Assembly: GCA_030655515.1 (NCBI GenBank)
Contig: JAURVI010000038.1
Location: forward strand, 1-64,000
Origin: Polaromonas sp.
GTDB lineage: Bacteria > Pseudomonadota > Gammaproteobacteria > Burkholderiales > Burkholderiaceae_C
Reading direction: 5' to 3'
Length of the DNA: 64,000 bases
The notes beneath the pieces were generated by a model, which did not search any database, was not told the DNA's origin, and was given only the letters and a program-made list of their open reading frames with translations. Position 1 is the stretch's first letter. Every line of letters begins with the position of its first letter. Of this stretch, positions 40,533 to 59,989 are shown one piece after another. Made by a program: the position numbers and the translations under genes.

Positions 40533-40550
40533 CTGTCATCAAACTGCCAT
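40533..40550 (+). promoter_or_regulatory. Pho box upstream of phoX
   Basis: CTGTCATCAAACTGCCAT: 16/18 to CTGTCATAAAWCTGTCAY. Confidence 0.75.
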
Positions 40551-42652: not shown

Positions 42653-43507
42653 ATGAAAGAACTGCCCAATCCCACTTTTGCATTGTCGCCCGTGGCTTCG
42701 CCGCATTTATCACGGGGGTTACTTCATCAAAGCTCTCATGCTGTCGGTCCAGCCGCTGTTCAAAGGCCTGCCGTGGGGAAAATCCAGGTCGGCTGGGCCA
42801 GGCACCAGGACGAGGTCCGGCAAGCGCAACGCCTGAGGTACCAGGTCTTCGCGCTAGAGATGGGCGCCACGCTGCCCAACACCTTGCCGGGCCACGACAT
42901 CGACCTGTTTGACGATTACTGCGAACACCTGCTGGTACGTGACGAGGGCAGCCAGGAAGTCATAGGCACCTACCGCGTGCTGACACCCACCCAGGCCCAA
43001 CGCGCAGGCAGCACCTACAGTGACACCGAGTTTGACCTGACGCGCCTGCGTTTTTTGCGCCCGCGCATGGTCGAGCTGGGCCGTAGCTGTGTGCATGCGG
43101 GGCACCGGCACGGCGGCGTGATTCTGGCTTTGTGGGGAGCGCTTGCCGAGTTCATGGCGCGCAACCGGCTCGACACCATGATCGGTTGCGCCAGCATTCC
43201 CATGCAGCACACCGGTGCGTCCAGTGGCCAGGCAGCAGCCAGCATCTGGCGCCAGGTCCGGCAACATCACCTGGCGCCCATCGAGTACCACGTGACGCCG
43301 CGCCTGGCCTTGCCGGTCGAACAACTCGATGATTCGCTGGATGTCGAGCCACCGGCGCTGATCAAGGGTTATCTGCGCCTGGGCGCCAAGGTGCTCGGCG
43401 CGCCCGCCTGGGATCCGGACTTCAACGCCGCCGACTTGCCGATGATGATGCGCATTGTCGATTTGCCACAACGTTATCGCAAGCATTTTTCCGGCAAGGG
43501 GGAGTGA
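42653..43507 (+). CDS. GNAT-family N-acyltransferase, OlsB-like (ornithine lipid synthesis)
   Basis: RYQVFALEMGATLP..DIDLFDDYCEHLLVRDEGSQEVIGTYRVLT..MVELGRSCVHAGHRHGGVILALWGALAEFM..MIGCASIPM. Confidence 0.72.
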   Translation: MKELPNPTFALSPVASPHLSRGLLHQSSHAVGPAAVQRPAVGKIQVGWARHQDEVRQAQRLRYQVFALEMGATLPNTLPGHDIDLFDDYCEHLLVRDEGSQEVIGTYRVLTPTQAQRAGSTYSDTEFDLTRLRFLRPRMVELGRSCVHAGHRHGGVILALWGALAEFMARNRLDTMIGCASIPMQHTGASSGQAAASIWRQVRQHHLAPIEYHVTPRLALPVEQLDDSLDVEPPALIKGYLRLGAKVLGAPAWDPDFNAADLPMMMRIVDLPQRYRKHFSGKGE

Positions 43508-44370
43508 TGCGGACGCTGTTCGACAAGCTCGGCGCCCTCGACCGTGGCGGCGCACCGGACCCGGGCGATGACCATGACGATGCGGCCTTGCGTCGGCGAT
43601 ACCGCAGCATTTTCATCTCCGACCTGCATCTGGGCACACCCGGCTGTCAGGCCGCTACGCTGTTGGATTTTCTGAAAGCCCACCCCAGCGACTACCTGTA
43701 CCTGGTCGGCGACATCGTGGACGGCTGGCAATTGCGGCGCAGGTGGTACTGGCCGCAGACGCACAACGACGTGGTGCAAAAGCTGCTGCGGCGCGCCCGC
43801 AAAGGCTGCCGTATCATCTATGTGCCCGGCAACCATGATGAGTTTGCGCGTGAGTTTATCGGCCACCAGTTCGGCGGCATCGAAGTCGTTGAAGAGACCG
43901 TCCACACCACGGCCGACGGCCGCAATCTGTGGATTGTTCACGGTGACTATTTCGATGCGGTCGTGCAGTGCGCCAGGTGGCTGGCCTACGTGGGCGACAA
44001 CCTCTATGAGTTCACGCTCAAACTCAACCGCTACCTGAATCACCTGCGCGCTCGCCTGGGCCTGCCTTACTGGTCCTTGTCGGCCTACCTCAAGCACAAG
44101 GTCAAAAGCGCTCTGAACTACGTGACGGATTTTGAAGTCGCCGTCGCCGGTGAAGCGCGACGCAGAGGCCACCAGGGCGTGGTCTGCGGCCACATTCACC
44201 GCGCCGAGATGCGCGAGATCGACGGCACGCTCTACTGCAATGACGGTGACTGGGTGGAAAGCCGCACCGCGCTGGTCGAGAATTTTGACGGCACCTTGGC
44301 CCTGCTGCACTGGGCGCCCACCCACGAGACGCAGGGCCGCGGCCATGCCGCCAGCACGGTGAGTGCATGA
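43507..44370 (+). CDS. Calcineurin-like phosphoesterase, PlcP-like (UDP-diacylglucosamine pyrophosphatase family)
   Basis: IFISDLHLGTPGCQAATLLDFL, YLVGDIVDGWQLRRRWYWPQTHNDVVQKLLRRARKG, YVPGNHDEFAREF, VCGHIHRAEMREIDG; ATG at about 43507. Confidence 0.75.
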   Translation: MRTLFDKLGALDRGGAPDPGDDHDDAALRRRYRSIFISDLHLGTPGCQAATLLDFLKAHPSDYLYLVGDIVDGWQLRRRWYWPQTHNDVVQKLLRRARKGCRIIYVPGNHDEFAREFIGHQFGGIEVVEETVHTTADGRNLWIVHGDYFDAVVQCARWLAYVGDNLYEFTLKLNRYLNHLRARLGLPYWSLSAYLKHKVKSALNYVTDFEVAVAGEARRRGHQGVVCGHIHRAEMREIDGTLYCNDGDWVESRTALVENFDGTLALLHWAPTHETQGRGHAASTVSA

Positions 44371-45428
44371 AGATCGCGTTGATCACCGACGCCTGGCAGC
44401 CGCAGGTCAATGGGGTGGTGACCACGCTGGTGGAACTGGTGCGTGAGCTGGAAAAACTGGGGCATGGCGTTGAAGTGATTCACCCCGGCCTGTTCAACAC
44501 GCGGCCCTGTCCGGGTTATGCGGGCATCGAACTGGCGATTCGTCCCAAGGCATTGCTCGGCGAAAAGCTGGATGCTTTGCGGCCCGACGCCATTCATGTG
44601 GCCACCGAAGGCCCGCTGGGCTGGGCCGCACGCGGCTACTGCGTCAAGCGGGGTTTGCGTTTTACCACCGCATTTCACACCAAGTTTCCGGAAATCCTGA
44701 ATGTCGCCTTGAAAATCCCGCTGTCCTGGGGTTATGCCCTGTTTCGCCACTTCCACAAAGCCTCTTCCGGGGTGATGGTGCCGACCAACGGGGTGCTGCG
44801 TATGCTGGAACAGCGGGGCTTTCGCAACTTGCGCAGTTGGACGCATGGGGTGGACACGCATCTGTTTTCTTTTCAGCCGCAGCCCCGCCTTTACCCGCCG
44901 GCCGGCCTGCTGGTCAGGCCGGTGTCCCTGTTTGTGGGCCGGGTATCCTACGAAAAAAACATCGAAACATTTTTGCAACTGGATATACCGGGCAGCAAGG
45001 TGGTCTGCGGTGTCGGGCCGCTGGAGGCGTCGCTCAAACAGCGCTACCCGCAGGTGCATTGGCTGGGTGTGCTGGCCAGGACCGAGCTGGCCAAAGTCTA
45101 CGCCGCCGCCGATGTTTTCGTTTTTCCCAGCAAATCTGAGACCTTCGGCCTGGTGATGCTCGAAGCCATGGCCAGCGGCACACCCGTCGCAGCCTTTCCG
45201 GTCGATGGCCCGCTGGAGGTGCTGGGCAAGCAGGATGGCAGTTGTCACGGCGGCGTCATGCATGGAAATCTGAAGCAGGCTTGTTACAACGCGATGATGG
45301 TTCCTCGGCATGAAGCCCGCGCGCGTGCGCTGGATTTCAGTTGGGCGCATGCAGCGCAACTGTTCGAAAAGTACCTGGTGCCGTCACAAAAGAAATCCGA
45401 GCATAAACTGATCGCAGCAGATGTGTAG
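44367..45428 (+). CDS. GT4-type glycosyltransferase, Agt-like (candidate diacylglycerol glycosyltransferase)
   Basis: MKIALITDAWQPQVNGVVTTL, LFVGRVSYEKNIETFL, ADVFVFPSKSETFGLVMLEAMASGTPVAAFPVDGP; ATGA overlap with preceding gene. Confidence 0.78.
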   Translation: MKIALITDAWQPQVNGVVTTLVELVRELEKLGHGVEVIHPGLFNTRPCPGYAGIELAIRPKALLGEKLDALRPDAIHVATEGPLGWAARGYCVKRGLRFTTAFHTKFPEILNVALKIPLSWGYALFRHFHKASSGVMVPTNGVLRMLEQRGFRNLRSWTHGVDTHLFSFQPQPRLYPPAGLLVRPVSLFVGRVSYEKNIETFLQLDIPGSKVVCGVGPLEASLKQRYPQVHWLGVLARTELAKVYAAADVFVFPSKSETFGLVMLEAMASGTPVAAFPVDGPLEVLGKQDGSCHGGVMHGNLKQACYNAMMVPRHEARARALDFSWAHAAQLFEKYLVPSQKKSEHKLIAADV

Positions 45429-45585: not shown

Positions 45586-45603
45586 TTGTCACGCCGTTGT
45601 CAT
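45586..45603 (+). promoter_or_regulatory. Pho-box-like direct repeat upstream of ppk
   Basis: TTGTCACGCCGTTGTCAT (TGTCA-N6-TGTCA). Confidence 0.6.
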
Positions 45604-45656
45604 CTAATTGAGTGACACTCATGTGTCAATTTTATTACATAAATAGTGCAGTTCGC

Positions 45657-47756
45657 ATGTCCCACTTCCCTGTGTCATTACCCGCTGCGCCTCCTGCCGT
45701 CCAGTTTCTGGACCGTGACCATAGCATTCTTGCTTTCAATGAAAGGGTGCTTGACTGGGCCAGGCGCGCGGACGTCCCCCTTTTGGAGCGGCTGAGGTTT
45801 TTGTGCATTGTTTCTTCCAACCTCGATGAGTTTTTTGAAGTCCGCGCCGCACTGCACTTGACGGCCGCCCAGGCCCATGAACAGAAAGGCCTTTACACCG
45901 CGGAGTCCTTCGAGGCGCTGGCCGAGGCCGCTCACGCGATGGTGGCCCGCCAATATGCCCTGTACAACGACGAGTTGATGCCCGCGTTTGAAAAGCAGGG
46001 CATCAAGGTGGTTTCGCACGGCGACCGCAATCCGGCGCAAAGGCGCTGGGTCCATGCCTATTTTGAGCGTGAGGTCAGGCCGCTGCTGGTTCCGGTGGGG
46101 CTCGATCCTTCGCACCCCTTTCCGCAGGTGGCCAACAAGTCACTGAACTTCATCGTCCGGCTGGGCGGCCGCGATGCGTTCGGCCGCGAAAACGATATCG
46201 CCATCGTCAAAGTGCCCCGGGTGTTGCCGCGGCTGATACCCATGCCGGACAAGGTGTCGGGCAAACACCGATGTTTTGTGTCTTTGTCCAGCGTGATTCG
46301 CGCGCACCTGGGCGAGCTGTTTCCTGGCCGCGAGGTCGGGCAGTTCTCGCAGTTTCGCGTGACCCGCCATTCTGATCTGGCGGTCGATGAAGACGATGTC
46401 AAAAACCTGCGCACCGCGCTGCGCCTGGGTCTGGAGCAGCGCCACTACGGGCAGGCGGTGCGGCTGGAAGTGTCGGCCGGCTGCTCCGAACACCTGTCGG
46501 GTTTCTTGCTCAGGCAGTTCAATCTGCCGGCGGCGTCCCTGTACCGTGTGCAGGGCCCGGTCAACCTGTATCGCCTGACCCAACTGGTGGATCTGGTCAA
46601 TGACCCGCGGCTTCTTTTTCCGCCCTACAAAGCCTGTTACCCGACGCAGTTGGTGCCTGGAGAGTCGTTTTTCGAGCGGCTCAAGCGCGGTGACGTGTCC
46701 ATCCATCAGCCGTTCGAGAGTTTTGACGGTGTGCTCGATTTCCTGCGCGAGGCGGTGAACGATCCGCAGGTGCTGGCCATCAAGCAAACCATTTACCGCA
46801 CCGGCTCGGATTCCGAGTTGATGGTTCTGTTGCGTGAAGCGGTGCGGCGCGGCAAGGAGGTCATGGTGGTGCTGGAGCTCAAAGCACGTTTTGACGAAGA
46901 AGCCAATATCAACTGGGCCGAGATGCTGGAGTCCATCGGCGCGCAGGTGGTCTATGGCGTGGTCGGGCTCAAGACCCACGCCAAAATGCTGCTGGTGACG
47001 CGGCGCGAAGGCCAGCATCTCAAACGTTACGCGCACCTGTCCACCGGCAACTACAACCCGACAACCGCCCGTCTGTACACCGACGTGAGTTATCTGTCGG
47101 CCGATCCGGCATTGACCGCGGACATTGACAATGTTTTTGTCCATCTGGCCAGCCAGAGCAAATTGCCCAGACTCCATCGTTTGCTGCTGGCGCCGTTTCA
47201 ATTGCACCGCAAACTGATCGAAAAAATTGATTCGCTGGGAGAGGCCGCCGCGCTCGGGAAAGAAACCCGAATCGTCGCCAAAATGAACGCGTTGACCGAC
47301 GAGGCCTTGATGCTGGCCCTGATCCGGGCGGGGCAAAGCGGCGTGAAGATTGACCTGGTGGTGCGCGGTGCCTGCATGTTGCCCGCGCAAGTGCCTGGCG
47401 TCACCGACAACATCCGGGTGCGCTCCGTCATAGGCCGTTTTCTCGAGCACTCCCGCGTCTTTTATTTCCGCGATGCCGGTGAAGAGACGCTGTACCTGTC
47501 CAGCGCCGACTGGATGAACCGCAACATGCTCCGGCGCGTTGAGCTGACGTGGACGGTGACGGATCCTCTGATTCGTCAGCGCATCATTGACGAATGCCTG
47601 GTCGCCTACCTGCATGACAGCCAGGACGCCTGGGACTTGCAGCCCGATGGCACTTACCTGCGGGTCAGCGAACCGGGGCAGGGCGAACAACATGGCGCAC
47701 AGGATGCGCTGATGGCGCGCTACGCGGTCAGCAGTTCGGTGAGGTCGCTGGGGTGA
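45657..47756 (+). CDS. ppk: Polyphosphate kinase 1
   Basis: FLDRDHSILAFNERVLDWA, LCIVSSNLDEFFEVR, AIKQTIYRTGSDSELM, YAHLSTGNYNPTTARLYTD. Confidence 0.97.
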   Translation: MSHFPVSLPAAPPAVQFLDRDHSILAFNERVLDWARRADVPLLERLRFLCIVSSNLDEFFEVRAALHLTAAQAHEQKGLYTAESFEALAEAAHAMVARQYALYNDELMPAFEKQGIKVVSHGDRNPAQRRWVHAYFEREVRPLLVPVGLDPSHPFPQVANKSLNFIVRLGGRDAFGRENDIAIVKVPRVLPRLIPMPDKVSGKHRCFVSLSSVIRAHLGELFPGREVGQFSQFRVTRHSDLAVDEDDVKNLRTALRLGLEQRHYGQAVRLEVSAGCSEHLSGFLLRQFNLPAASLYRVQGPVNLYRLTQLVDLVNDPRLLFPPYKACYPTQLVPGESFFERLKRGDVSIHQPFESFDGVLDFLREAVNDPQVLAIKQTIYRTGSDSELMVLLREAVRRGKEVMVVLELKARFDEEANINWAEMLESIGAQVVYGVVGLKTHAKMLLVTRREGQHLKRYAHLSTGNYNPTTARLYTDVSYLSADPALTADIDNVFVHLASQSKLPRLHRLLLAPFQLHRKLIEKIDSLGEAAALGKETRIVAKMNALTDEALMLALIRAGQSGVKIDLVVRGACMLPAQVPGVTDNIRVRSVIGRFLEHSRVFYFRDAGEETLYLSSADWMNRNMLRRVELTWTVTDPLIRQRIIDECLVAYLHDSQDAWDLQPDGTYLRVSEPGQGEQHGAQDALMARYAVSSSVRSLG

Positions 47757-48262: not shown

Positions 48263-49759
48263 CTACAGGCCGGCCAGCACCAGCGCCCAGGGCGTTTTTT
48301 GCCAGGCCAGCGCTTCTTCACGCAGCAAGTGAGCCGACTGCGGGTAGGCGCTGACCCAACTGCTGCGGCAACTCAGCACAAAACGGCGGCTGCCCGCAGT
48401 GCTTTCGATCTGCATGTCCTTGACGTCGGGCGCGCGGCGCGCGTGGCATAGGATCACGGCCAGCCGCAGGCAGAGCAACTGCCGCACGAAGTCCTTGTCT
48501 TCGAAGTCGGCATCGAGCTTGCGCAGCTTGCCGCGGTGGCCCAGCACCAGCAGGCTCAGGCGATGCAGTTCAGGCAGCGCAAAGCCTGGCGCGTCGGCAT
48601 TGTCCAGAATGTAGGCGCCATGCTTGTGGTAGTCGCTGTGGGCAATGTGGCTGCCGATTTCATGCAACTGGGCGGCCCAATCGAGTTTGCGCTGAAAACG
48701 CGCCAGGTCTGCCGGCGACAGACCGCTGCAGGTTTGCTGGAACAGGATGCGGGCCACTTGACTCACGCGTTCGGCCTGGTCGGCATCCGCGTCAAATTTT
48801 CGGGCCAACCGCTGAACCGTGGTGGAGCGTAGATCGGTGATGTCCTGTTCGCGGTCCAGCAGGTCATAGAGCAGGCCATGGCGCAGAGCGCCCTGGGCCG
48901 CCTGCATCTGCTCGATACCGAGCAGATCAAAAACGGCCCGCAACACGCTGACGCCGCCGCCAATGACGGCACGCCGATCATCCTTCATGCCATCGAGCTT
49001 CAGGCGATCTGCGCTTTGGGCTTTGAGCAGCCGGTCCAGCAGCCAGTCCAGCCCGTCCTGCGTGACCAGACCGGGAGGCCCGCCTGCGGCGACCAGCACA
49101 TCGCCGACGGCGGCAATGGTGCCCGATGACCCATGGGCGACATCCCAGTTGCCGGTGCGGTACGTGTTGACGGCTTCGTCCAGCACCGCCTTGGCGGCGA
49201 CTTCGGCCGCCTGGAAAGCGCGAGCATTGAACTGGCCATCCGGAAAATATTTCATCGACCAGGCGACGCTGCCGACCCGGTAGGACTCCATCGTCAGCGC
49301 ATCGAGGCCTTGGCCCAGGATCATTTCGGTGGATCGGCCGCCGATATCAACCACCAGGCGCCGCTCTTCGGACTGCGGCAGCATATGCGCCACGCCCTGG
49401 TAAATCAGGCGGGCTTCTTCGCGACCGGAAATCACGTCAATCGGAAAACCCAGCACCTGGTGGGCACGCAGCAAAAAGTCGTCACGGTTGCGGGCTTCGC
49501 GCAGCGTCTGGGTAGCCACCGCGCGCACCTCGCCTTTTTTGAAACCGGCCAGGCGTTCACCAAAACGCGACAGGCAGTCCCAGCCGCGCTGCATGGCCTC
49601 GGGCGTCAGGTTGCGGTCGCCATCCAGGCCATTGCCCTGGCGCACGGTTTCCTTGAGGTATTCGGTGCGGTGAATCCGCCCGTGGTCGAGGCGGCCTATT
49701 TCGAGGCGGTAGCTGTTGGACCCAAGGTCCACGGCAGCCAGGCGGGTTCCATTTTGCAT
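48263..49759 (-). CDS. ppx: Exopolyphosphatase / GppA-type phosphatase
   Basis: LAAVDLGSNSYRLEIGR, AVATQTLREARN, VVDIGGRSTEMILG. Confidence 0.94.
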   Translation of the reverse strand: MQNGTRLAAVDLGSNSYRLEIGRLDHGRIHRTEYLKETVRQGNGLDGDRNLTPEAMQRGWDCLSRFGERLAGFKKGEVRAVATQTLREARNRDDFLLRAHQVLGFPIDVISGREEARLIYQGVAHMLPQSEERRLVVDIGGRSTEMILGQGLDALTMESYRVGSVAWSMKYFPDGQFNARAFQAAEVAAKAVLDEAVNTYRTGNWDVAHGSSGTIAAVGDVLVAAGGPPGLVTQDGLDWLLDRLLKAQSADRLKLDGMKDDRRAVIGGGVSVLRAVFDLLGIEQMQAAQGALRHGLLYDLLDREQDITDLRSTTVQRLARKFDADADQAERVSQVARILFQQTCSGLSPADLARFQRKLDWAAQLHEIGSHIAHSDYHKHGAYILDNADAPGFALPELHRLSLLVLGHRGKLRKLDADFEDKDFVRQLLCLRLAVILCHARRAPDVKDMQIESTAGSRRFVLSCRSSWVSAYPQSAHLLREEALAWQKTPWALVLAGL

Positions 49760-49849
49760 GTGTGAGCCGGTATTGTGAGGCTCAGCATAGCACTCACGCG
49801 GCACTCTCATGCCCTGACTTTCTTCGCCAGTAAAACAATTTTTTTACAT

Positions 49850-49867
49850 TTGTCATGGGGGTGTCAC
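49850..49867 (+). promoter_or_regulatory. Pho-box-like direct repeat upstream of the kinase-receiver-CheX operon
   Basis: TTGTCATGGGGGTGTCAC (TGTCA-N6-TGTCA), about 44 bp before the 49911 start; CATAGT -10-like at about 49881. Confidence 0.62.
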
Positions 49868-49910
49868 GAAGCAGTTGCAGCATAGTGTGTTGTAACTTTA
49901 TGACCAGATT

Positions 49911-51950
49911 ATGAAATTCTCGTTGGGCTTGGGCAAATACCGTGATTTGCTGTTCGCCATTTTGCTGTTTATTGTTCTGGACCTTGGCATTCTGTTTTTC
50001 AATTTTTTTGCCTCCATCCAGCTCGAGCGCGACGCGAGCCGAATCAACGCGGCCGGCGAGCTGCGCATGCTGACGCAGCAAATCACCAAATCCCTGTTGA
50101 CCTTGCAGGTCGAAAAAAGGGGCGAGCTTCCGATCCAGACCAGCATGGCGCAGCTCAATCAGGGCACGGCGGCATTTGTTCAGGGCCTGGCTTCCCTGAA
50201 AAGTGCGATGACAAAAGATGCCGAGTTCACGATCTTTGGCTTGAATCCGGATGATTTGCGGGACACGCTCAAAAAACTTGAGCGCGAGTGGACGCCACTT
50301 GAAGAGTCTATCCAGCCGGTGATTGCCGTGACCGAGCCGACTATGGAAGATACCGAAATTGCTGCAACCAAGGCGGTTGCCCGCAACATCCGTTTGATGG
50401 CCCTCAGTGATGATCTGGCTACCGGCGTGGAGGCTGCCGCAAAAACCAAGACCGAGCGGATGCGGCAGATTCAGGTCATCGCCATTGTTCTGGCCCTGCT
50501 CAATTTTGTCTACATTGTTTTCAAGTTTCTCCGGCGTTTGAACGCCAGTGACCATATTGCGGAATCCGCCCGCCGCGAGACGGATGACATTTTGCGGACG
50601 GTGTCGGAAGGTTTGTTGCTGGTCAAGGCCGACGGCAGCATAGGCACGCAACTCTCGGCGTCAGTGCATCGACTTTTCATGCGCGAGATCAAGCCCGGAG
50701 AAGATTTTCGCCAATTGCTGCACAGCCTGTTGACCAAAGAGCGGGCCGAAGAAGCGGACAGCTACCTTGATTTGCTGTTTGACCCCAAGGTCAAGCCGGC
50801 GCTGCTGACGCAACTGGACCCGCTCAAGGATGTGCAAATCAGCGTTCCCGGCGACACGTCGGCCAAAGTCCAGTATGTGACTTTCCAGATGACGCAGGTG
50901 CGCGAGGCCGGGCGTGTCAAAGAGCTGCTGGTAACGGTGTTCGATGTCACGCAAAAAGTGCAGCTCGAGCATGAACTTGCCGCGACGCAGGAGGCCGCCA
51001 AAAGCGACGTCGACGACCTGATACGGGTGTTGGAGCAGGAGCCGCTGCTGCTGCAGGACTTTTTGCTGGGTGCCCGCTCGAAGCTGGCCGACCTGAACCA
51101 GGCCATGCGCGCCGTGGGGGGGCGGTCGGAGGCTTACAAAACACTGGTCGATGATGCGGCCAGGCTGGTGCATGGCATCAAGGGCGAAGGTGCGGCGCTG
51201 AGCCTGACCGCCGTCTCGCGCCAGGCCCATGTGATGGAAAATGCGCTGGCTCCCTTGCTCAAGCGCCGCGATCTTTCAGGCGAGGATTTGATTCCCGTCG
51301 TTTTTGAACTGTCCCGGGTGCAGGATCAGGTGGAGCGGCTGCACAAGGTATTTGCAAGAATCGGCAAACCGGCAGCGACCGCCTCGCAACACGAGCCGCG
51401 CTTGATGGATGCCATGGTGACCAACCTTCGGTCTTTGTCGGAGCGGGTGGCGCTGTCCCTGGGCAAGCAGGTTCGGTTAACCGCTTATGTCGATGAAATG
51501 GCCCTGCCTGCCGAGGTGGAGCGGGTACTGCGGGAAGCGCTGCCGCAACTGGTTCGCAATGCGATTGTCCATGGCATTGAGCTGCCGTCAGAGCGCGAGA
51601 GGCTCAGCAAGCCCCCGGTGGGCGAGCTTCGCCTGGATATCGGGCGCGCCGAGGACGGCTTGATTGAAGTCACCGTCAGTGACGACGGGCGCGGCATCGC
51701 GGTTCCCGAGGTCAGGCGGCGCATGGCGCAACTGCGGACTGATTCGGCACAGTTCACTGACGCGCAAGTGCTTGGATTCATTTTCGATCCACACTTTTCC
51801 ACCGCGAGCGAAGTCACCGAACATGCGGGGCGCGGGGTGGGCTTGTCCCTGGTCCGGCAAATCGCCGAGAAGGCGGGCGCCAAGTTGAGGGTGATGACCC
51901 GGCCCAATGTGTCAACGCAGTTCGTTCTGAAGTTCGGGGTGGCGTCATGA
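49911..51950 (+). CDS. Membrane CheA-like histidine kinase: PilJ/NarX-type sensor, PAS-like, Hpt-like, HATPase; no CheW-like domain seen
   Basis: INAAGELRMLTQQITKSLLTLQ (PilJ N-term type), HGIKGEGAALSLTAVSRQAHVMENAL (Hpt-like), LPQLVRNAIVHGIELPSERERLSKPPVGELRL ... GRGVGLSLVRQIAEKAGAKLRV (CheA-type ATPase). Confidence 0.8.
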   Translation: MKFSLGLGKYRDLLFAILLFIVLDLGILFFNFFASIQLERDASRINAAGELRMLTQQITKSLLTLQVEKRGELPIQTSMAQLNQGTAAFVQGLASLKSAMTKDAEFTIFGLNPDDLRDTLKKLEREWTPLEESIQPVIAVTEPTMEDTEIAATKAVARNIRLMALSDDLATGVEAAAKTKTERMRQIQVIAIVLALLNFVYIVFKFLRRLNASDHIAESARRETDDILRTVSEGLLLVKADGSIGTQLSASVHRLFMREIKPGEDFRQLLHSLLTKERAEEADSYLDLLFDPKVKPALLTQLDPLKDVQISVPGDTSAKVQYVTFQMTQVREAGRVKELLVTVFDVTQKVQLEHELAATQEAAKSDVDDLIRVLEQEPLLLQDFLLGARSKLADLNQAMRAVGGRSEAYKTLVDDAARLVHGIKGEGAALSLTAVSRQAHVMENALAPLLKRRDLSGEDLIPVVFELSRVQDQVERLHKVFARIGKPAATASQHEPRLMDAMVTNLRSLSERVALSLGKQVRLTAYVDEMALPAEVERVLREALPQLVRNAIVHGIELPSERERLSKPPVGELRLDIGRAEDGLIEVTVSDDGRGIAVPEVRRRMAQLRTDSAQFTDAQVLGFIFDPHFSTASEVTEHAGRGVGLSLVRQIAEKAGAKLRVMTRPNVSTQFVLKFGVAS

Positions 51951-52321
51951 AGATCAGAGGCCTGATGGTGGTGGACGACTCGATGGTTTTCCGTAACAGG
52001 ATATCCCGGCTGGCGACCGATCAGCGCCTGGCCGGAGTCAAGGTCGTTGCCCTGGCTGAAGACGGTATGCAGGCCATAGCGCAGGCAAAGCTGCATAAAC
52101 CGGACTTTGTCACGATGGATCTGACCATGCCGACGATGGACGGTCCGGCCTGCCTCGAAGCGCTGCGCACCGTATTGCCGGATGCGCGCGTTCTGGTGGT
52201 GTCGGCGCTGAGCGACCGGGCCACGGCCCTGAAAGCCATGACCAAAGGCGCACACGGCTTTCTGCTGAAGCCTTTTTCGGACGAGCAACTGGTCGAGTCT
52301 CTGCAGGAGTTGATGGTATGA
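51947..52321 (+). CDS. Stand-alone CheY-like receiver
   Basis: GLMVVDDSMVFRNRISRL..DFVTMDLTMPTMDG..VLVVSALSDRATALKAMTKGAHGFLLKPF; ATGA overlap with kinase. Confidence 0.9.
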   Translation: MKIRGLMVVDDSMVFRNRISRLATDQRLAGVKVVALAEDGMQAIAQAKLHKPDFVTMDLTMPTMDGPACLEALRTVLPDARVLVVSALSDRATALKAMTKGAHGFLLKPFSDEQLVESLQELMV

Positions 52322-52797
52322 GTACGACTCGGCTCAAAGCCGAAGACATCAAGATATTTTCGGATGCTGCGATGGCTTTTTTTGCCCAGACCACCGGGCA
52401 TAAAGCCGCGGTACGCACGGCCTACCTGCTCGACGGCACAGACACCGTGGTCTGGAATGATTTTCAGGGCCGTATCGAGCTCAGCGGACAATACCGCGGC
52501 AGTGTCACGTTTTCGGCGCCGCGCGGCCTGCTGACCCATGTCCTGCTCAAGATGGGCGAAAGCGACTACACCGATGCGAGCCACCGCGACATCGTCGGCG
52601 AAATCACCAATCAGATGTCCGGTTATGCACGCCGCCATTTTGGCGAGACCATGGACATTTCTCCCCCTCGTGTGATCACGCAAGTCGAAGGCGTCGCGCT
52701 GCCGGGCTTCGAGGCCGCACCCTTTGTCATTCCGATGTTATGGGACCGCTACGAAGCCCATCTGGTCGTGCGCATGGGCAAGGCCGGCGGCTTCTGA
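52318..52797 (+). CDS. CheX-like (CheC/CheX family) protein
   Basis: HRDIVGEITNQMSGYARRHFGETMDISPPRVI pattern; translationally coupled to receiver. Confidence 0.72.
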   Translation: MSTTRLKAEDIKIFSDAAMAFFAQTTGHKAAVRTAYLLDGTDTVVWNDFQGRIELSGQYRGSVTFSAPRGLLTHVLLKMGESDYTDASHRDIVGEITNQMSGYARRHFGETMDISPPRVITQVEGVALPGFEAAPFVIPMLWDRYEAHLVVRMGKAGGF

Positions 52798-52859: not shown

Positions 52860-52877
52860 TTGTCACTCCCTTGTCAC
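52860..52877 (+). promoter_or_regulatory. Pho-box-like direct repeat upstream of the lipoprotein gene
   Basis: TTGTCACTCCCTTGTCAC (TGTCA-N6-TGTCA). Confidence 0.6.
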
Positions 52878-52931: not shown

Positions 52932-53249
52932 ATGAAATTCGTTTTTACCGCTCCCTTCATCGCCATCGGCCTGCTGGCCGGCTGCGCTTCCAGCCCTGCC
53001 GTGCCGCCAGGCATGATGGCCGGCAAGTTCGTCAGTTTTTCCTGCGAAGGAGGGAAGACCTTTAGTGCCCGCGCTGCCGAAGACGGCAAGACGGTTCGCG
53101 TGCGCGGCCACCATGGCAGTGCGGAGCTCGACATGAAGAGTGACGGTGTGTACGAAGGCGACGGCTACACGCTGATGACCAAGGGGGCAGATGGCGTCAG
53201 CCTGATGCACTCCGGCAAGCCTGAAGGCAAAAGCTGCAAGCCAGCCTGA
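52932..53249 (+). CDS. MliC-like (C-type lysozyme inhibitor family) lipoprotein
   Basis: Lipobox LLAGC; SFSCEGGKTFSARAAEDGKTVRVRG..DGYTLMTKGADGVSLMHSGKPEGKSC. Confidence 0.6.
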   Translation: MKFVFTAPFIAIGLLAGCASSPAVPPGMMAGKFVSFSCEGGKTFSARAAEDGKTVRVRGHHGSAELDMKSDGVYEGDGYTLMTKGADGVSLMHSGKPEGKSCKPA

Positions 53250-53251
53250 TT

Positions 53252-53269
53252 TCGTCATTAAACTGTCAT
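53252..53269 (+). promoter_or_regulatory. Pho box upstream of pstS
   Basis: TCGTCATTAAACTGTCAT: 15/18 to consensus, followed by CATAAA -10-like. Confidence 0.78.
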
Positions 53270-53322
53270 GTTAATGACATAAAGTAAGTGCAAGTTTGTT
53301 TATTTCTCCGAAAGGAACTCTC

Positions 53323-54324
53323 ATGAAATCTTTCCCGATCAAATCCATGCTGGCCATCTCCACGCTGGCTTTTCTCGGCGCAGTGCCTTTGGCCGGTTTT
53401 GCGCAGGTTGTCAAAATTGACGGCTCCAGCACGGTCTATCCGGTGACTGAGGCGGTTGCCGAAGAATTCCAGAAGGCCAACAAAGGCCTCAAGGTCACCG
53501 TGGGTGTGTCCGGCACCGGCGGTGGCTTCAAGAAGTTTTGCCGTGGCGAGACCGATATCTCCAATGCATCGCGCCCGATTTCGGCTTCCGAAATGGAAGA
53601 CTGCCGCAAAATCGGCGTTGAGTACTTCGAAATGCCCGTCGCCTTTGATGCGCTGACCGTGGTGATCAACCCCAAGAACACATGGCTCAAGCAGGCCACC
53701 GTCGCCGAGCTGAAAAAAATGTGGGAACCTGCGGCCCAGGGCAAAGTCATGCGCTGGAACCAGGTCAACCCGGCATGGCCCGACCAGCCGATGAAATTGT
53801 TCGGCGCCGGGTCTGACTCTGGCACCTTCGACTACTTCACCGAAGCCATCGTCGGCAAGTCCAAGTCCAGCCGTGGCGATTTCACCGCTTCCGAAGACGA
53901 CAATGTGCTGGTGCAGGGCGTCGCCGGCGACGTCAATGCCATCGGCTACTTCGGTTTTGCGTATTACGCCGAAAACACCAACAAGCTCAAAGCCTTGCCC
54001 ATCATCGAGAAGGAAGGCAAACCTGCGGTGTCGCCCAGTGCTGAAACCGTGATCAAGGGCACCTACCAGCCGCTGGCCCGTCCGATCTTCATCTACATCA
54101 ACGCCAAATCGCTGGCCAAGCCCGAAGTCAAGAAGTTTGTGGACTTTTACATGAGCCAGGGTGCCAAGATGGCCAAGGAGGTGAAGTACGTTCCCCTGCC
54201 GGCTGCTATCTATACGTCAAACATCAAGCACATTGCCGAGAATAAGAAGGGCACCATCTTCGGCGGAAAAAACGAAGTGGGCATCAGCATCGAAGAGCTG
54301 GTCAAGCGCGAAGCCAAGCTCTAG
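53323..54324 (+). CDS. pstS: Phosphate ABC transporter substrate-binding protein
   Basis: VVKIDGSSTVYPVTEAVAEEFQKAN, GVSGTGGGFKKFCRGETDISNASRPI, GSDSGTFDYFTEAI. Confidence 0.96.
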   Translation: MKSFPIKSMLAISTLAFLGAVPLAGFAQVVKIDGSSTVYPVTEAVAEEFQKANKGLKVTVGVSGTGGGFKKFCRGETDISNASRPISASEMEDCRKIGVEYFEMPVAFDALTVVINPKNTWLKQATVAELKKMWEPAAQGKVMRWNQVNPAWPDQPMKLFGAGSDSGTFDYFTEAIVGKSKSSRGDFTASEDDNVLVQGVAGDVNAIGYFGFAYYAENTNKLKALPIIEKEGKPAVSPSAETVIKGTYQPLARPIFIYINAKSLAKPEVKKFVDFYMSQGAKMAKEVKYVPLPAAIYTSNIKHIAENKKGTIFGGKNEVGISIEELVKREAKL

Positions 54325-54352
54325 TATCGATTTATCCGACGGCTTGAACATG

Positions 54353-54392
54353 ATCTGCCTGCAAGCTTCCCCGAAGCTGCAGGCAGATTTTT
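54353..54392 (+). terminator. Strong hairpin/terminator or attenuator between pstS and pstC
   Basis: ATCTGCCTGCAAGCTT-CCCCG-AAGCTGCAGGCAGATTTTT. Confidence 0.82.
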
Positions 54393-54436
54393 GTTGATCT
54401 GCCGTCTTTTACGAAAACAACAAAACGAAACTTACA

Positions 54437-55402
54437 ATGAGTGCCTCTACTACTTCGGACCGCATTGTGATTGCTGAACGATTGACGGGGGCAGCCCGCC
54501 TTGCCGAACTGGCTCAAATCAAGGCCGCGCGCAAACGCAAAGACCGGATCATTGAGTTTGTGCTGCTCATGGCCGCCTGTGTCTCGGTGTTCACCACCCT
54601 GGCCATTGTCTATGTCCTGCTCAAAGAATCCCTGGTTTTCTTCAGCAATGTGCCACTTTGGACATTCCTGACCGATACGCAGTGGACGCCGCTGTTCGAC
54701 GATGCGCACTTCGGCATCGTGGTGCTGCTGTCGGGTACGCTGTCGAGCTCGCTGGTGGCCCTGGCCATCGCGATACCGCTGGGCACCATCATTGCCATCT
54801 ATCTGTCCGAGTTTGCCGAACACCGCGTACGCGAGGTGCTCAAGCCCGTGCTGGAGCTGTTGTCCGGGGTGCCGACCATTATTTACGGCTTTTTTGCCCT
54901 GCTGGTGCTCACGCCCCTGATTCAAAGAATCTACCCCGGCTTGCCTACCTTCAACGTCCTGTCGGCCGGCATTGTGATGGGGATCATGATCATTCCCTAC
55001 GTGTCGTCCTTGTCCGAGGATGCGATGCGCGCGGTACCCATGAGTTTGCGCGAGGGCTCATACGCCATGGGCGCCACGCGCTTTCAGACCGCCACGCGAG
55101 TCGTGGTGCCGGCGGCTTTCTCCGGTATTGCGTCGGCCTACATTTTGGGTATATCGCGTGCGGTGGGGGAGACCATGATTCTCGCGGTGGCTGCCGGGAT
55201 GCAGCCCAACCTGACGCTTAATCCGCTGGAGCCTGCGGCCACCATCACGTCCTTCATCGTGCAGGTGGCACTGGGCGACTTGCCGCATGGCAGCGTGGGG
55301 TATCAGACTATTTTCGCCGCGGGATTGACGCTGTTGTTGATCACGCTGATGTTCAATCTTTTGGGCCATTGGCTGCGCCGCAAATACCGGGAGGTTTATT
55401 GA
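54437..55402 (+). CDS. pstC: Phosphate ABC transporter permease PstC
   Basis: LLSGVPTIIYGFFAL, SEDAMRAVPMSLREGSYAMGATRFQTATRVVVPAAFSGI. Confidence 0.95.
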   Translation: MSASTTSDRIVIAERLTGAARLAELAQIKAARKRKDRIIEFVLLMAACVSVFTTLAIVYVLLKESLVFFSNVPLWTFLTDTQWTPLFDDAHFGIVVLLSGTLSSSLVALAIAIPLGTIIAIYLSEFAEHRVREVLKPVLELLSGVPTIIYGFFALLVLTPLIQRIYPGLPTFNVLSAGIVMGIMIIPYVSSLSEDAMRAVPMSLREGSYAMGATRFQTATRVVVPAAFSGIASAYILGISRAVGETMILAVAAGMQPNLTLNPLEPAATITSFIVQVALGDLPHGSVGYQTIFAAGLTLLLITLMFNLLGHWLRRKYREVY

Positions 55403-56331
55403 TGAGCCGCAACGCAAACCGCACGCAAGAGCTGCGTGCCATCATCAGGTCGCACAAGCGCTGGGATGTCATCTTCGGCCTGGTCGGCGTGGCCGCGATC
55501 TCCCTGGCGATCCTGACACTGGTCGCTTTGTTTACGGAAATGGTGATCGACGGTGCTCCGCGGATTTCCACCGAGTTTTTTACCAGCTTCCCATCGCGCA
55601 GGGCAGGGCAGGCAGGCATTTTGTCGGCTTGGGTCGGGTCATTTTTCGTGATGATCGTCACTGCTGTTTTTGCAATACCGGTGGGTATTGCCAGCGCCAT
55701 CTATCTTGAAGAATACGCCCGCAAAAACTGGTTCACCGATGTCATCGAGATCAACATCAGCAACCTGGCCGGCGTGCCTTCCATTGTCTACGGTCTGCTG
55801 GCGCTCGGGCTGTTTGTCTACACCTTCGGTTTTGGCCAGAGCATTTTGTCGGCTGGATTGACCTTGGCCTTGTTGATTTTGCCGATTGTCATCGTGACCA
55901 CGCGCGAATCGCTTCGGTCCATTCCCCAAACCGTGCGTGAAGGTGCTTATGCCTGTGGCGCAACCAGGTGGCAAGTGGTCAGCGACCACCTGGTGCCTTA
56001 CAGCTTGCCGGGCATCCTGACGGGAGTCATCATCGGTCTGTCCCGGGCCATCGGCGAGACCGCGCCCATCATCACCATCGGCGCGCTGACGTTCATCGCC
56101 TTCCTGCCGCCCGTACCGTTCACGGGAGACCCTGCCGCGGGTCTTTTTGACTGGCTTTTTTCCCCATTTACCGTGATGCCGATCCAGATTTTCAACTGGA
56201 CATCCCGGCCTGACCCGGCCTTTCATGCCAACGCCGCGGCGGCAAGTCTGGTGCTGGTGTTCCTGACCCTGGGCATGAATGGCCTGGCCATCTGGCTGCG
56301 CTACCGCCTTCGCAAAAATATCAAGTGGTAA
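55402..56331 (+). CDS. pstA: Phosphate ABC transporter permease PstA
   Basis: [61 protein letters not shown]. Confidence 0.95.
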
Positions 56332-56354
56332 TCCTTCTCCGAGATCAACGCACC

Positions 56355-57149
56355 ATGCCATCGACCATTACGCTTCCCGACAACGCGCCTGCACTGAAGG
56401 CCCAGTCGAAAAATCTCGACTTTTATTACGGCGCCTTCAAAGCATTGAAGGGTGTCACCATGCCGATCTACGAGAACAAGGTCACGGCCTTGATCGGACC
56501 CAGCGGCTGCGGCAAGTCCACCTATTTGCGCTGCTTCAACCGCATGCACGACCTTTACCCAGGGCATCGCTATGACGGCAAGATCGAGCTTTACCCGGAC
56601 GATGTGGACATCCTTGACCATGCGGTGGACCCGATCGAAGTGCGCATGCGCATCTCCATGGTGTTTCAGAAACCGAATCCGTTTCCCAAATCCATCTTTG
56701 AAAACGTGGCCTACGGCCTGCGTGTGCGCGGTGAAAAATCGGAGAGCTATCTTGAAGACAAAGTGGAGGCCGCCCTCAAGGCCGCCGCCATCTGGAACGA
56801 GGTCAAAGACCGGATGACCGAGTCGGCCACCAACCTGTCCGGTGGTCAGCAGCAGCGTTTGTGCATTGCCCGGTCGCTGGCAACCGACCCGGAGATCATC
56901 CTGTTTGACGAGCCCACGTCGTCCCTGGACCCGATCGCCACCGGAAGCATTGAAGAACTCATCGGCGAGATCAAAAACCAGGTCACGATCCTGATCGTGA
57001 CGCACAACATGCAGCAGGCGGCCCGTGTGTCGGACTACGTGTCCTACATGTACCTGGGCGAGATGGTGGAATACGGCGTTACCAGTGATATCTTCATGAA
57101 GCCGAAACGCCAGGAAACCGAAGACTATATTACCGGAAGGTTTGGCTAA
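56355..57149 (+). CDS. pstB: Phosphate ABC transporter ATP-binding protein
   Basis: [63 protein letters not shown]. Confidence 0.96.
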
Positions 57150-57151
57150 TC

Positions 57152-57853
57152 ATGACCGATAAACACTTGTCCAGCCAGTTTGACAGCGAACTCAGCGGTG
57201 TGTCATCACGCGTGATGGAAATGGGCGGCCTGGTTGAGTCCCAGATTCGAACCGCCGTCTACGCCCTGTCCCAGTTCAGCAGCGAGGCGGCCGATCAGGT
57301 GACCGAGCTGGAAACAAGCGTCAACACGATGGAGATCGACATCGACCGCGAGCTGTCGTCCATCATTGCGCGCCGCCAGCCGACGGCGAGGGATCTGCGC
57401 TTGCTGATCGCGATCTCCAAAACCACCGCCAACCTGGAGCGCGCCGGCGACGAAGCCGAAAAAATTGCCCGCATGGTCCGCTCCATCATTGAGAGTGGTG
57501 CCGCGCGGGCCTTGCCTGCCTCCGAATTGCGCGTGGCGGCCGACCTGGCCTCCGGGCTGTTGCGCAAGGCGCTTGATGCGTTTGCGCGGCTCGATGCCAA
57601 CGCCGCCGTGTCCATCCTCAAGGAAGACGATGCGATTGATAAAGAGTTCGACGGGTTTGTGCGCAAGCTGATCACTTACATGATGGAAGATCCACGGACC
57701 ATTTCATCCAGTCTGGATCTGCTGTTCCTGGCCAAAGCCATTGAGCGCATCGGCGACCATGCCAAAAACATCGCCGAGTTCATTATTTATGTGGTCAAAG
57801 GTGCCGATGTTCGCCATACCTCCATGGAGACCATCGAGTCGGTGGTTCGATGA
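57152..57853 (+). CDS. phoU: Phosphate signaling complex protein PhoU
   Basis: MEMGGLVESQIRTAVYAL, ELSSIIARRQPTARDLRLLIAISKTTANLERAGDEAEKIARM. Confidence 0.95.
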   Translation: MTDKHLSSQFDSELSGVSSRVMEMGGLVESQIRTAVYALSQFSSEAADQVTELETSVNTMEIDIDRELSSIIARRQPTARDLRLLIAISKTTANLERAGDEAEKIARMVRSIIESGAARALPASELRVAADLASGLLRKALDAFARLDANAAVSILKEDDAIDKEFDGFVRKLITYMMEDPRTISSSLDLLFLAKAIERIGDHAKNIAEFIIYVVKGADVRHTSMETIESVVR

Positions 57854-58545
57854 AAACTGTGCCCCGTGTTCTGGTCGTTGAGGATGAACCGGCCATTGCA
57901 GAGCTGATTGCCATCAATCTCCGCCACAACGGTTTTCAGCCCATTTGGGCGATTGACGGTGAAGCCGCCCAGCGTGAACTGGAGGCGGTGTTGCCTGACG
58001 TGATTTTGCTGGACTGGATGCTTCCCGGTCAAAGCGGCTTGTCGCTGGCCAAAAAATGGCGGGCGCACGCAAGAACCAAACCGATTCCGATTCTGATGAT
58101 CACCGCTCGCGGCGATGAGCCCGACAAGATCGCGGGCCTGGACGCCGGCGCGGACGACTACATCACCAAACCCTTTTCCACCCAGGAACTGCTGGCCCGC
58201 ATACGCGCGGTGCTGCGCAGGCGTTCACCCGAGCAGGCCAAGGACAGCGTGACGCTGGATGCGCTGGAACTCGATGCCGCGACCTACCGGGTTTCCTACC
58301 AGGGACAGAACCTGAAGCTCGGTCCGACCGAGTTCAAGTTGCTGCACTACCTGATGAAACACGCCGAACGGGTACACAGCCGGGGGCAACTGCTGGACAA
58401 GGTCTGGGGTGACCATGTCTTCATTGAAGAGCGTACCGTTGATGTTCACGTCAAGCGGCTGCGCGAGGCCCTGGGTGCGGCCGGCGCCATGGTGGAGACG
58501 GTGCGCGGCGCAGGCTACCGCATGACAGCCCATCCGTCCGTTTAG
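57850..58545 (+). CDS. phoB: Phosphate regulon response regulator
   Basis: VLVVEDEPAIAELIAINLRHNGF, LLDWMLPGQSGL, KVWGDHVFIEERTVDVHVKRLREALG. Confidence 0.95.
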   Translation: MKTVPRVLVVEDEPAIAELIAINLRHNGFQPIWAIDGEAAQRELEAVLPDVILLDWMLPGQSGLSLAKKWRAHARTKPIPILMITARGDEPDKIAGLDAGADDYITKPFSTQELLARIRAVLRRRSPEQAKDSVTLDALELDAATYRVSYQGQNLKLGPTEFKLLHYLMKHAERVHSRGQLLDKVWGDHVFIEERTVDVHVKRLREALGAAGAMVETVRGAGYRMTAHPSV

Positions 58546-58550
58546 CGTGC

Positions 58551-58628
58551 GCAGCGCCGGGCCGCCCCCAGCAAGCACAGCCCCCTCGGGGGGCAGAGCG
58601 CTACACGCAAGTGAGCGAACGTGGAGGC
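58551..58628 (+). repeat. Single degenerate copy of the GCCCCCTCGGGGGGC repeat between phoB and phoR
   Basis: GCGCCGGGCCGCCCCCAGCAAGCACAGCCCCCTCGGGGGGCAGAGCGCTACACGCAAGTGAGCGAACGTGGAGGC. Confidence 0.88.
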
Positions 58629-58663
58629 CAGGTTAGCGAAATGCTTTCCTGCACAATTCCTGC

Positions 58664-59989
58664 ATGATTTGGCGCGTCTTTCGGTTTTTTCTTTTTCAGA
58701 TGGCTGGGGCTCTTCTGGGCTGGTTTCTGCCGCTGGATCAACCCCTGCATGGCTTGCTGCTTGGGATCGTGCTGGCCAGCGCACTTTGGGTGCTGCTGGA
58801 TTTGTGGCGCGGCATGATCTTGTTGGCGTGGCTCAAGGAAGGCGACACGGCTTCGCGGACACGGGTCGGTGGGCTGTGGGGCGAGGTGGCTGACCGGACC
58901 TGGCGTCTGACCCAATCACGCGATAAAAAAGTGGCGGAAAGCCAGGGCCGGCTCAACGAATTTCTGGCGGCGATCCAGTCCTCTCCCAACGGCGTGGTGC
59001 TGCTGGATGCGAAAGACTGCATTGAATGGTGCAACGAGACGGCCGCGGGTCATTTTGGCTTTGATCCGCAGCGCGATGTCCTGCAGCACATCGGCAACCT
59101 GCTGCGCGATCCCGTGTTTGTGGCCTATCTCAATGGCGAAAACTACGCCGAAGATATTGTCATTGTCGGCCCGCGCAGCTCGGCGAGCCGGCCGGTCCAA
59201 TTGGCGGTCCATTTGCACCGCTACGGAGAGGGCCGCAAATTGCTGCTGTCGCGTGATGTCACATCGGTCGAGCAGGCGGAGGTGATGCGGCGCGATTTCG
59301 TGGCCAACGTTTCGCATGAAATCCGCACGCCCCTGACGGTGTTGGGGGGTTTTGTCGAGACCCTGCAAACCCTGCCGCTGAGCGACGAGGAACGCGCGCA
59401 TTACCTTGAACTGATGGCCCAGCAGGCACGGCGCATGCAAACGCTTGTCAGCGATCTGTTGACACTGTCCAGGCTGGAGGGGAGTCCGCCGCCAGGCACC
59501 GAGGAATGGGTCCCGGTCGCCGAGCTGATGGCGCTGTGTGAGCAGGATGGAGGCGATCTGTCGAAAATGCTGGTCACGCAAAGTCATGACTTGCGGTTCA
59601 GCGTCGCGGGTCATCATGAAATTGCAGGCTCCCATTCAGAGCTTTTGAGTGCCATGTCCAATCTGGTCAGCAATGCGGTACGTTACACCCCTGCAGGCGG
59701 ATCCATAGAGGTCCAATGGCAAAACATGGCAGACGGGCGGGCAGAGTTTTCAGTCAAAGACTCCGGCCCTGGCATCGCGCCGGAACACATTCCGCGCCTG
59801 ACCGAACGCTTTTACCGGGTGGACCGCAGCCGTTCGCGCGAGACCGGAGGCACCGGCCTGGGCCTGGCGATTGTCAAACACGTGGCTCAGCGCCACGGCG
59901 CCGAGCTGCACATCGAAAGCCGGCCCGGACACGGCTCGCGGTTTTCAATTGTCTTTCCGGCCACGCGGGTGCGACCGATTCCGTCCTGA
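58664..59989 (+). CDS. phoR: Phosphate regulon sensor kinase
   Basis: DFVANVSHEIRTPLTVLGGFVETLQTL, LMAQQARRMQTLVSDLLTLSRLEG, RFYRVDRSRSRETGGTGLGLAIVKHVAQRH. Confidence 0.95.
   Translation: MIWRVFRFFLFQMAGALLGWFLPLDQPLHGLLLGIVLASALWVLLDLWRGMILLAWLKEGDTASRTRVGGLWGEVADRTWRLTQSRDKKVAESQGRLNEFLAAIQSSPNGVVLLDAKDCIEWCNETAAGHFGFDPQRDVLQHIGNLLRDPVFVAYLNGENYAEDIVIVGPRSSASRPVQLAVHLHRYGEGRKLLLSRDVTSVEQAEVMRRDFVANVSHEIRTPLTVLGGFVETLQTLPLSDEERAHYLELMAQQARRMQTLVSDLLTLSRLEGSPPPGTEEWVPVAELMALCEQDGGDLSKMLVTQSHDLRFSVAGHHEIAGSHSELLSAMSNLVSNAVRYTPAGGSIEVQWQNMADGRAEFSVKDSGPGIAPEHIPRLTERFYRVDRSRSRETGGTGLGLAIVKHVAQRHGAELHIESRPGHGSRFSIVFPATRVRPIPS

Follow-up and report, generated by a model that had tools for sequence, protein, structure and literature searches.

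A candidate PhoB-controlled CheA-like kinase, receiver and CheX circuit in a Polaromonas phosphate-starvation island, with a nitrate-linked sister subfamily

The stretch of DNA analysed here (64,000 nucleotides; hereafter, the window) comes from a freshwater Polaromonas-type bacterium and carries, inside a phosphate-starvation cluster, three adjoining genes for a membrane sensor kinase, a lone receiver and a CheX-type phosphatase (hereafter, the triad). On balance, we consider that the triad is probably a PhoB-induced, self-contained sensor-kinase/receiver/phosphatase circuit whose output is not flagellar. It belongs to a wider family, of which it forms the branch linked to phosphate; a sister branch occurs in nitrate-assimilation clusters.

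The kinase (679 aa, 49911..51950), the CheY-like single-domain receiver (124 aa, 51947..52321, with D10, D11, D58, S86 and K108) and the CheX-family protein (159 aa, 52318..52797) are all encoded on the plus strand. An earlier note on this DNA had described them as a three-gene operon with two ATGA overlaps, and both the coordinates and the overlaps were correct. Profile searches assigned PilJ, Hpt and HATPase_c to the kinase, Response_reg to the receiver and CheX to the third protein; every match exceeded its curated Pfam cut-off, and the domains agree with those proposed earlier. The gene order kinase-receiver-CheX was found in 31 of the 33 intact loci that were fetched. When 35-37 relatives were aligned, H421, N550, D591, G593/G595 and G640/G642 of the kinase, D58, S86 and K108 of the receiver, and E95, N98 and P117 of the CheX protein were invariant. 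The loss of conserved His or Asp residues, which had been named as a result that would count against the module, was thus not seen, and the main catalytic residues are intact across these relatives. The invariance of the Hpt, ATPase, receiver and CheX residues shows that selection maintains the circuit as a functioning set of kinase, receiver and phosphatase.

The third protein scored 58.5 bits against Pfam CheX (cut-off 27) and matched the CheX structure 3hm4 in the PDB with an E value of 1.4e-12. The catalytic E-x-x-N of CheX is kept, E95 and N98 being invariant in 35 sequences, and the protein is the predicted phosphatase of the phosphorylated receiver.

The kinase begins with a hydrophobic stretch (TM1, residues about 12-32) on the N-terminal side of a PilJ/NarX-type periplasmic domain (Pfam PilJ, residues 36-141, including G49-x-x-R52), followed by a second hydrophobic stretch (TM2, residues about 189-207), a PAS-like alpha/beta region (residues 230-345), an Hpt domain (Pfam, residues 380-477) with the phospho-acceptor His421, and a CheA-P4-type ATPase (residues 497-679; Pfam HATPase_c 537-675). 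The PAS-like region was recognised in the AlphaFold model (mean pLDDT 83), which also has the helical sensor, the Hpt bundle and the ATPase. Hpt was detected by Pfam in 26/26 members of the kinase family, with His421 invariant, and is similar to CheA P1. The ATPase resembles CheA P4 in sequence (PDB 6s1k, E 3.6e-52) and in fold (Z 21.8, rmsd 2.4 over 168 residues).

The P3 dimerisation domain of CheA comprises about 60 aa in two helices. The corresponding profile, H-kinase_dim, had no match in the 26 kinase members, and in the model the last Hpt helix (485) and the first P4 helix (498) are only about 12 residues apart. A CheW (P5) domain was likewise without a match in the 26 members, and the kinase of the window stops 4 residues past its ATPase match. 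According to a survey, every CheA has four core domains, P3 and CheW (P5) among them (PMC10782961), and an assignment to CheA was rejected on the absence of these two. Judging from its domains, the kinase is predicted to function like CheA yet falls outside CheA. The earlier suggestion that a membrane sensor-CheA hybrid would bypass CheW and receptors is therefore supported in silico, in the form of a self-contained CheA-like/CheY-like/CheX circuit.

The surrounding island has the order phoX, lipid-remodelling-type genes, ppk, sixA, ppx, triad, lipoprotein gene and pstSCAB-phoU-phoBR. The phoX-family alkaline phosphatase (40625-42580; PF05787, E 5e-169) is followed by genes for a GNAT acyltransferase, a calcineurin-type phosphoesterase and a family-4 glycosyltransferase in a row (42653-45428), which resemble and are putatively named OlsB, PlcP and Agt. 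OlsB, PlcP and Agt serve to remodel membrane lipids when Pi is scarce. The polyphosphate kinase gene ppk (45612..47756, plus strand) and the exopolyphosphatase gene ppx (48263..49810, minus strand) lie upstream of the triad, and pstS-pstC-pstA-pstB-phoU-phoB-phoR (53296..59989, plus strand) lies downstream and is conserved in L042, L090 and L092. The placement of the triad between ppx and pstS held, with two refinements: ppx is divergent from the kinase gene, and pstS is directly preceded by a small lipoprotein gene (52932..53249, plus strand) with a Pho box of its own. The lipoprotein (105 aa) has an MliC/PliC-like fold, its match to the lysozyme inhibitor PliC having a probability of 1.00 but an E value of 0.065; a profile search of the PDB gave chance matches only. 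Its gene was present in exactly the same 4/87 Polaromonas genomes as the pho-linked triad.

The Pho box of the kinase, TTGTCATGGGGGTGTCAC, lies at 49850..49867 on the plus strand, 43 bp before the start codon, and consists of two 7-bp repeats (TTGTCAT and GTGTCAC) with a 4-bp spacer (GGGG). The pattern KTGTCAYNNNNKTGTCAY had three matches in the 2.65-Mb assembly, all in the phosphate island, at the promoters of ppk (45586..45603), the kinase and the lipoprotein gene (52860..52877), all on the plus strand; its reversed control had no match genome-wide. Two overlapping Pho boxes precede pstS (53252..53280, plus strand), and a good match, CTGTCATCAAACTGCCAT, begins at 40533, 92 bp before the listed start of phoX. 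Because KTGTCAYNNNNKTGTCAY was drawn up after sites in this locus had been seen, a matrix was also trained on just the promoters of ppk, the lipoprotein gene and pstS, with that of the kinase withheld. With this matrix, the kinase site ranked third among all window positions, and a site was found at exactly -43 in three Polaromonas kinase promoters (20.5, 14.9 and 12.1 bits; shuffling gave p 0.002 for each), the position being identical in L041/L090, from the cultivated Polaromonas strain A23, and in L042. The kinase promoter of G027, from another genus, had a weaker site (8.3 bits at -93, p 0.015), and that of G728 had no Pho box by the matrix. The kinase promoters of the nitrate-linked loci gave nothing above background, and only three matrix sites above 12 bits occurred in the 528 kb of these loci. 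The box ahead of the kinase noted earlier is thus real and not a chance match. Its genome specificity and its shared position in three Polaromonas support the proposed PhoB control of the operon in silico. A promoter with a Pho box is a trait of the Pho regulon, and PhoB would be expected to bind here.

A Pho-box-like site of 15.6 bits was also seen at L106:9783-9800 (minus strand), at -46 of a 44%-identical kinase from another family and in no pho gene context; L105 has a weaker box of this kind. These two sites hint that the pho link may be older.

Pho-type CheX was found in 4/87 Polaromonas genomes, and the pho linkage extends to these four and one other genus. The ppx/triad/lipoprotein/pst-phoBR block is kept in the Polaromonas loci L042 and L090, L043 shows ppx/triad synteny, and G027 keeps ppk-sixA-ppx-triad. 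G728 encodes a 66%-identical kinase and has no downstream pho genes. In the kinase tree, the pho-linked Polaromonas kinases fall inside a well-supported clade with those of G027, G728 and other families, the latter with no recurrent gene context. A general association with ppx or pst, as the earlier note had anticipated, was not found beyond Polaromonas and G027, and the commoner sister group is tied to nitrate genes. A phylum-wide sample of 398 genomes added one further genome only, with two copies. In G448 (L109), pst-phoUBR lies some 3 kb upstream of the triad; since this arrangement does not recur in its relative G343, G448 was left out of the count.

Some loci depart from the common arrangement. 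At L092:12488-14668 (G215), unrelated genes stand in place of the kinase and most of the receiver, the CheX gene is kept but frame-broken, and the lipoprotein gene is kept; this may be decay or a draft-assembly artefact. At L152 and L153 (G812:C4:255313-261316), in a genome of another family of the same class, a pair of related kinases is separated by about 3 kb. An EAL-CBS-GGDEF (c-di-GMP) gene of one family occurs at or near the triads of G027, G343 and G448 (L043:10908-12740, L108:6957-8789 and L109:7300-8817; three genomes from two families), and none was seen beside the Polaromonas triads.

In Burkholderiales, the triad is distributed more widely than its pho linkage. A sister clade, about 33% identical, was present in 17/87 Polaromonas genomes. 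Of the 27 loci of this clade not cut off upstream, 23 have the triad downstream of nrtABC in a nitrate-assimilation cluster, often accompanied by nasT, narK, nirB and nasA. Both the pho and the nitrate versions were found in two Polaromonas genomes, G159 and G182. The siting of the sister triads in nitrate-uptake clusters suggests a little-noticed family of nutrient-linked circuits. Proteins combining ANTAR RNA-binding and PilJ parts, possibly cytoplasmic nitrate antiterminators, were seen near nitrate-linked triads at L099:14716-15765 (minus strand) and in L095, L100, L102 and L104.

The motif G-x-x-R is the nitrate-binding motif of NarX/NarQ and McpN (PMC8199190, PMC6381276). It is present in the triad kinase at G49/R52, within residues 45-53 (I-N-x-A-G-x-L-R-M), which fit the nitrate P-box consensus, and the sensor profile matched the McpN nitrate receptor domain 6gcv (E 7.6e-4). 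Together with the sister subfamily behind nrtABC, these matches favour a sensor that still detects nitrate or nitrite, in a module recruited to the Pho regulon to connect nitrate availability with phosphate and polyphosphate handling. G-x-x-R is, however, common to many PilJ-type domains, so the ligand is not fixed by the motif. The second P-box arginine (S-Q-R) is Q in the pho-linked kinases, the site reading mostly GRQRMLSQR in the nitrate-linked clade versus GELRMLTQQ in the pho-linked kinases, a difference compatible both with nitrate sensing being kept and with a switch of ligand. In addition, a second copy resides in the nitrate cluster of two genomes, which would free the pho copy from having to sense nitrate. 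We regard nitrate sensing by the pho-linked kinase as possible but unlikely.

By analogy with CtpL, which reads PstS in Pseudomonas aeruginosa (PMC9864684), the sensor could instead read the solute-binding protein that serves the adjacent transporter (PstS in this island, NrtA in the sister group). The triad is close to a binding-protein gene in both main contexts, which agrees with this proposal; the other-family triads near no recognised binding-protein gene and the pho-type triad of G027, which has no adjoining pst, do not, and we hold it to be rather doubtful.

Two further alternatives concern the output, for which no effector domain or conserved extra partner was identified as a pointer. 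The receiver and CheX might have no output of their own and instead take phosphate away from PhoR-PhoB or another kinase, as a sink or a buffer against cross-talk. An output-less receiver, a dedicated phosphatase and membership of the same regulon as phoBR are all compatible with such a sink, which we nevertheless judge improbable given that many genomes have the triad away from phoBR and that the kinase has complete catalytic parts of its own.

Neither CheW nor FliM was found in the assembly of the window, absences that are provisional at its completeness of 85%. FliM was also absent from the complete relative G159, where CheW matches were confined to one locus, and most of the carriers examined lacked it, among them Polaromonas A23, whose genome is complete. 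These absences make flagellar chemotaxis an unlikely output; it was rejected on the absence of FliM, which contradicts a flagellar form of the motility named among the outputs in the earlier note. A motility or type IV pilus circuit, to which the chemotaxis-type parts, the Pfam name PilJ and the single CheW-containing locus of G159 and of G182 (each of which could belong to a pilus system) might point, is very improbable in the light of these absences, the lack of recognised pilus or flagellar neighbours and the recurrence of nutrient-uptake contexts.

Under the preferred reading, a PhoB-induced circuit with a non-flagellar output, PhoB would bind the box at 49850 during Pi starvation and the operon would be expressed. 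The PilJ/NarX-type four-helix domain would sense a periplasmic signal, either an oxyanion at G-x-x-R or a binding protein such as PstS, and the CheA-type ATPase would autophosphorylate His421 in the kinase's own Hpt. The phosphate is predicted to pass from His421 to Asp58 of the lone receiver, and CheX, via E95/N98, would strip it off and so determine how long the signal lasts. While phosphorylated, the receiver would bind a target outside the flagellar system, the most plausible candidates being products of neighbouring genes for phosphate or polyphosphate metabolism.

More tentatively, and with somewhat less than even confidence, we propose that the triads form an unrecognised Burkholderiales family of nutrient-linked, CheW-free PilJ-PAS-Hpt-ATPase kinase/receiver/CheX circuits with paralogous nitrate and phosphate branches, the phosphate branch, under PhoB, supplementing the control of phosphate or polyphosphate with a rapid layer that acts post-translationally. 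The parts are known; in the open-access literature we found no description of the combination, of its location in nutrient operons or of the phosphate/nitrate pair. If the proposal is true, chemotaxis-type phosphosignalling regulates nutrient uptake in the absence of receptors, CheW and a motor, and one genome can hold both a phosphate and a nitrate version. Such pairs would be a natural system in which to identify the targets of output-less receivers and to learn how the ligand of a nitrate-type sensor changes.

Among known systems, the CheA-CheY-CheX chemotaxis branch of Thermotoga and Borrelia shares with the triad an Hpt (P1), a P4-type ATPase, a single-domain receiver and a CheX-type phosphatase with catalytic E and N. 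The triad kinase differs in having its own membrane sensor and no P3 dimerisation or CheW (P5) domain, and the triad has no adjoining receptors, CheW, CheR or CheB and is probably not flagellar. With NarX/NarQ and McpN the kinase shares the PilJ/NarX-type periplasmic domain, the P-box and G-x-x-R; in contrast to NarX/NarQ, its catalytic half is CheA-like (Hpt and CheA-type ATPase), its partner is an output-less 124-aa receiver instead of a NarL-type DNA-binding regulator, and its locus is among pho genes. CtpL of Pseudomonas aeruginosa is likewise a periplasmic sensor linked to Pi starvation, but it is a chemoreceptor feeding flagellar chemotaxis, whereas the triad is built on a kinase with its own receiver. 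Finally, the triad is beside pstSCAB-phoU-phoBR and has a Pho box in common with the Pho regulon; relative to PhoR-PhoB, it would not be the master sensor but a second, separate phosphosignalling circuit put under PhoB.
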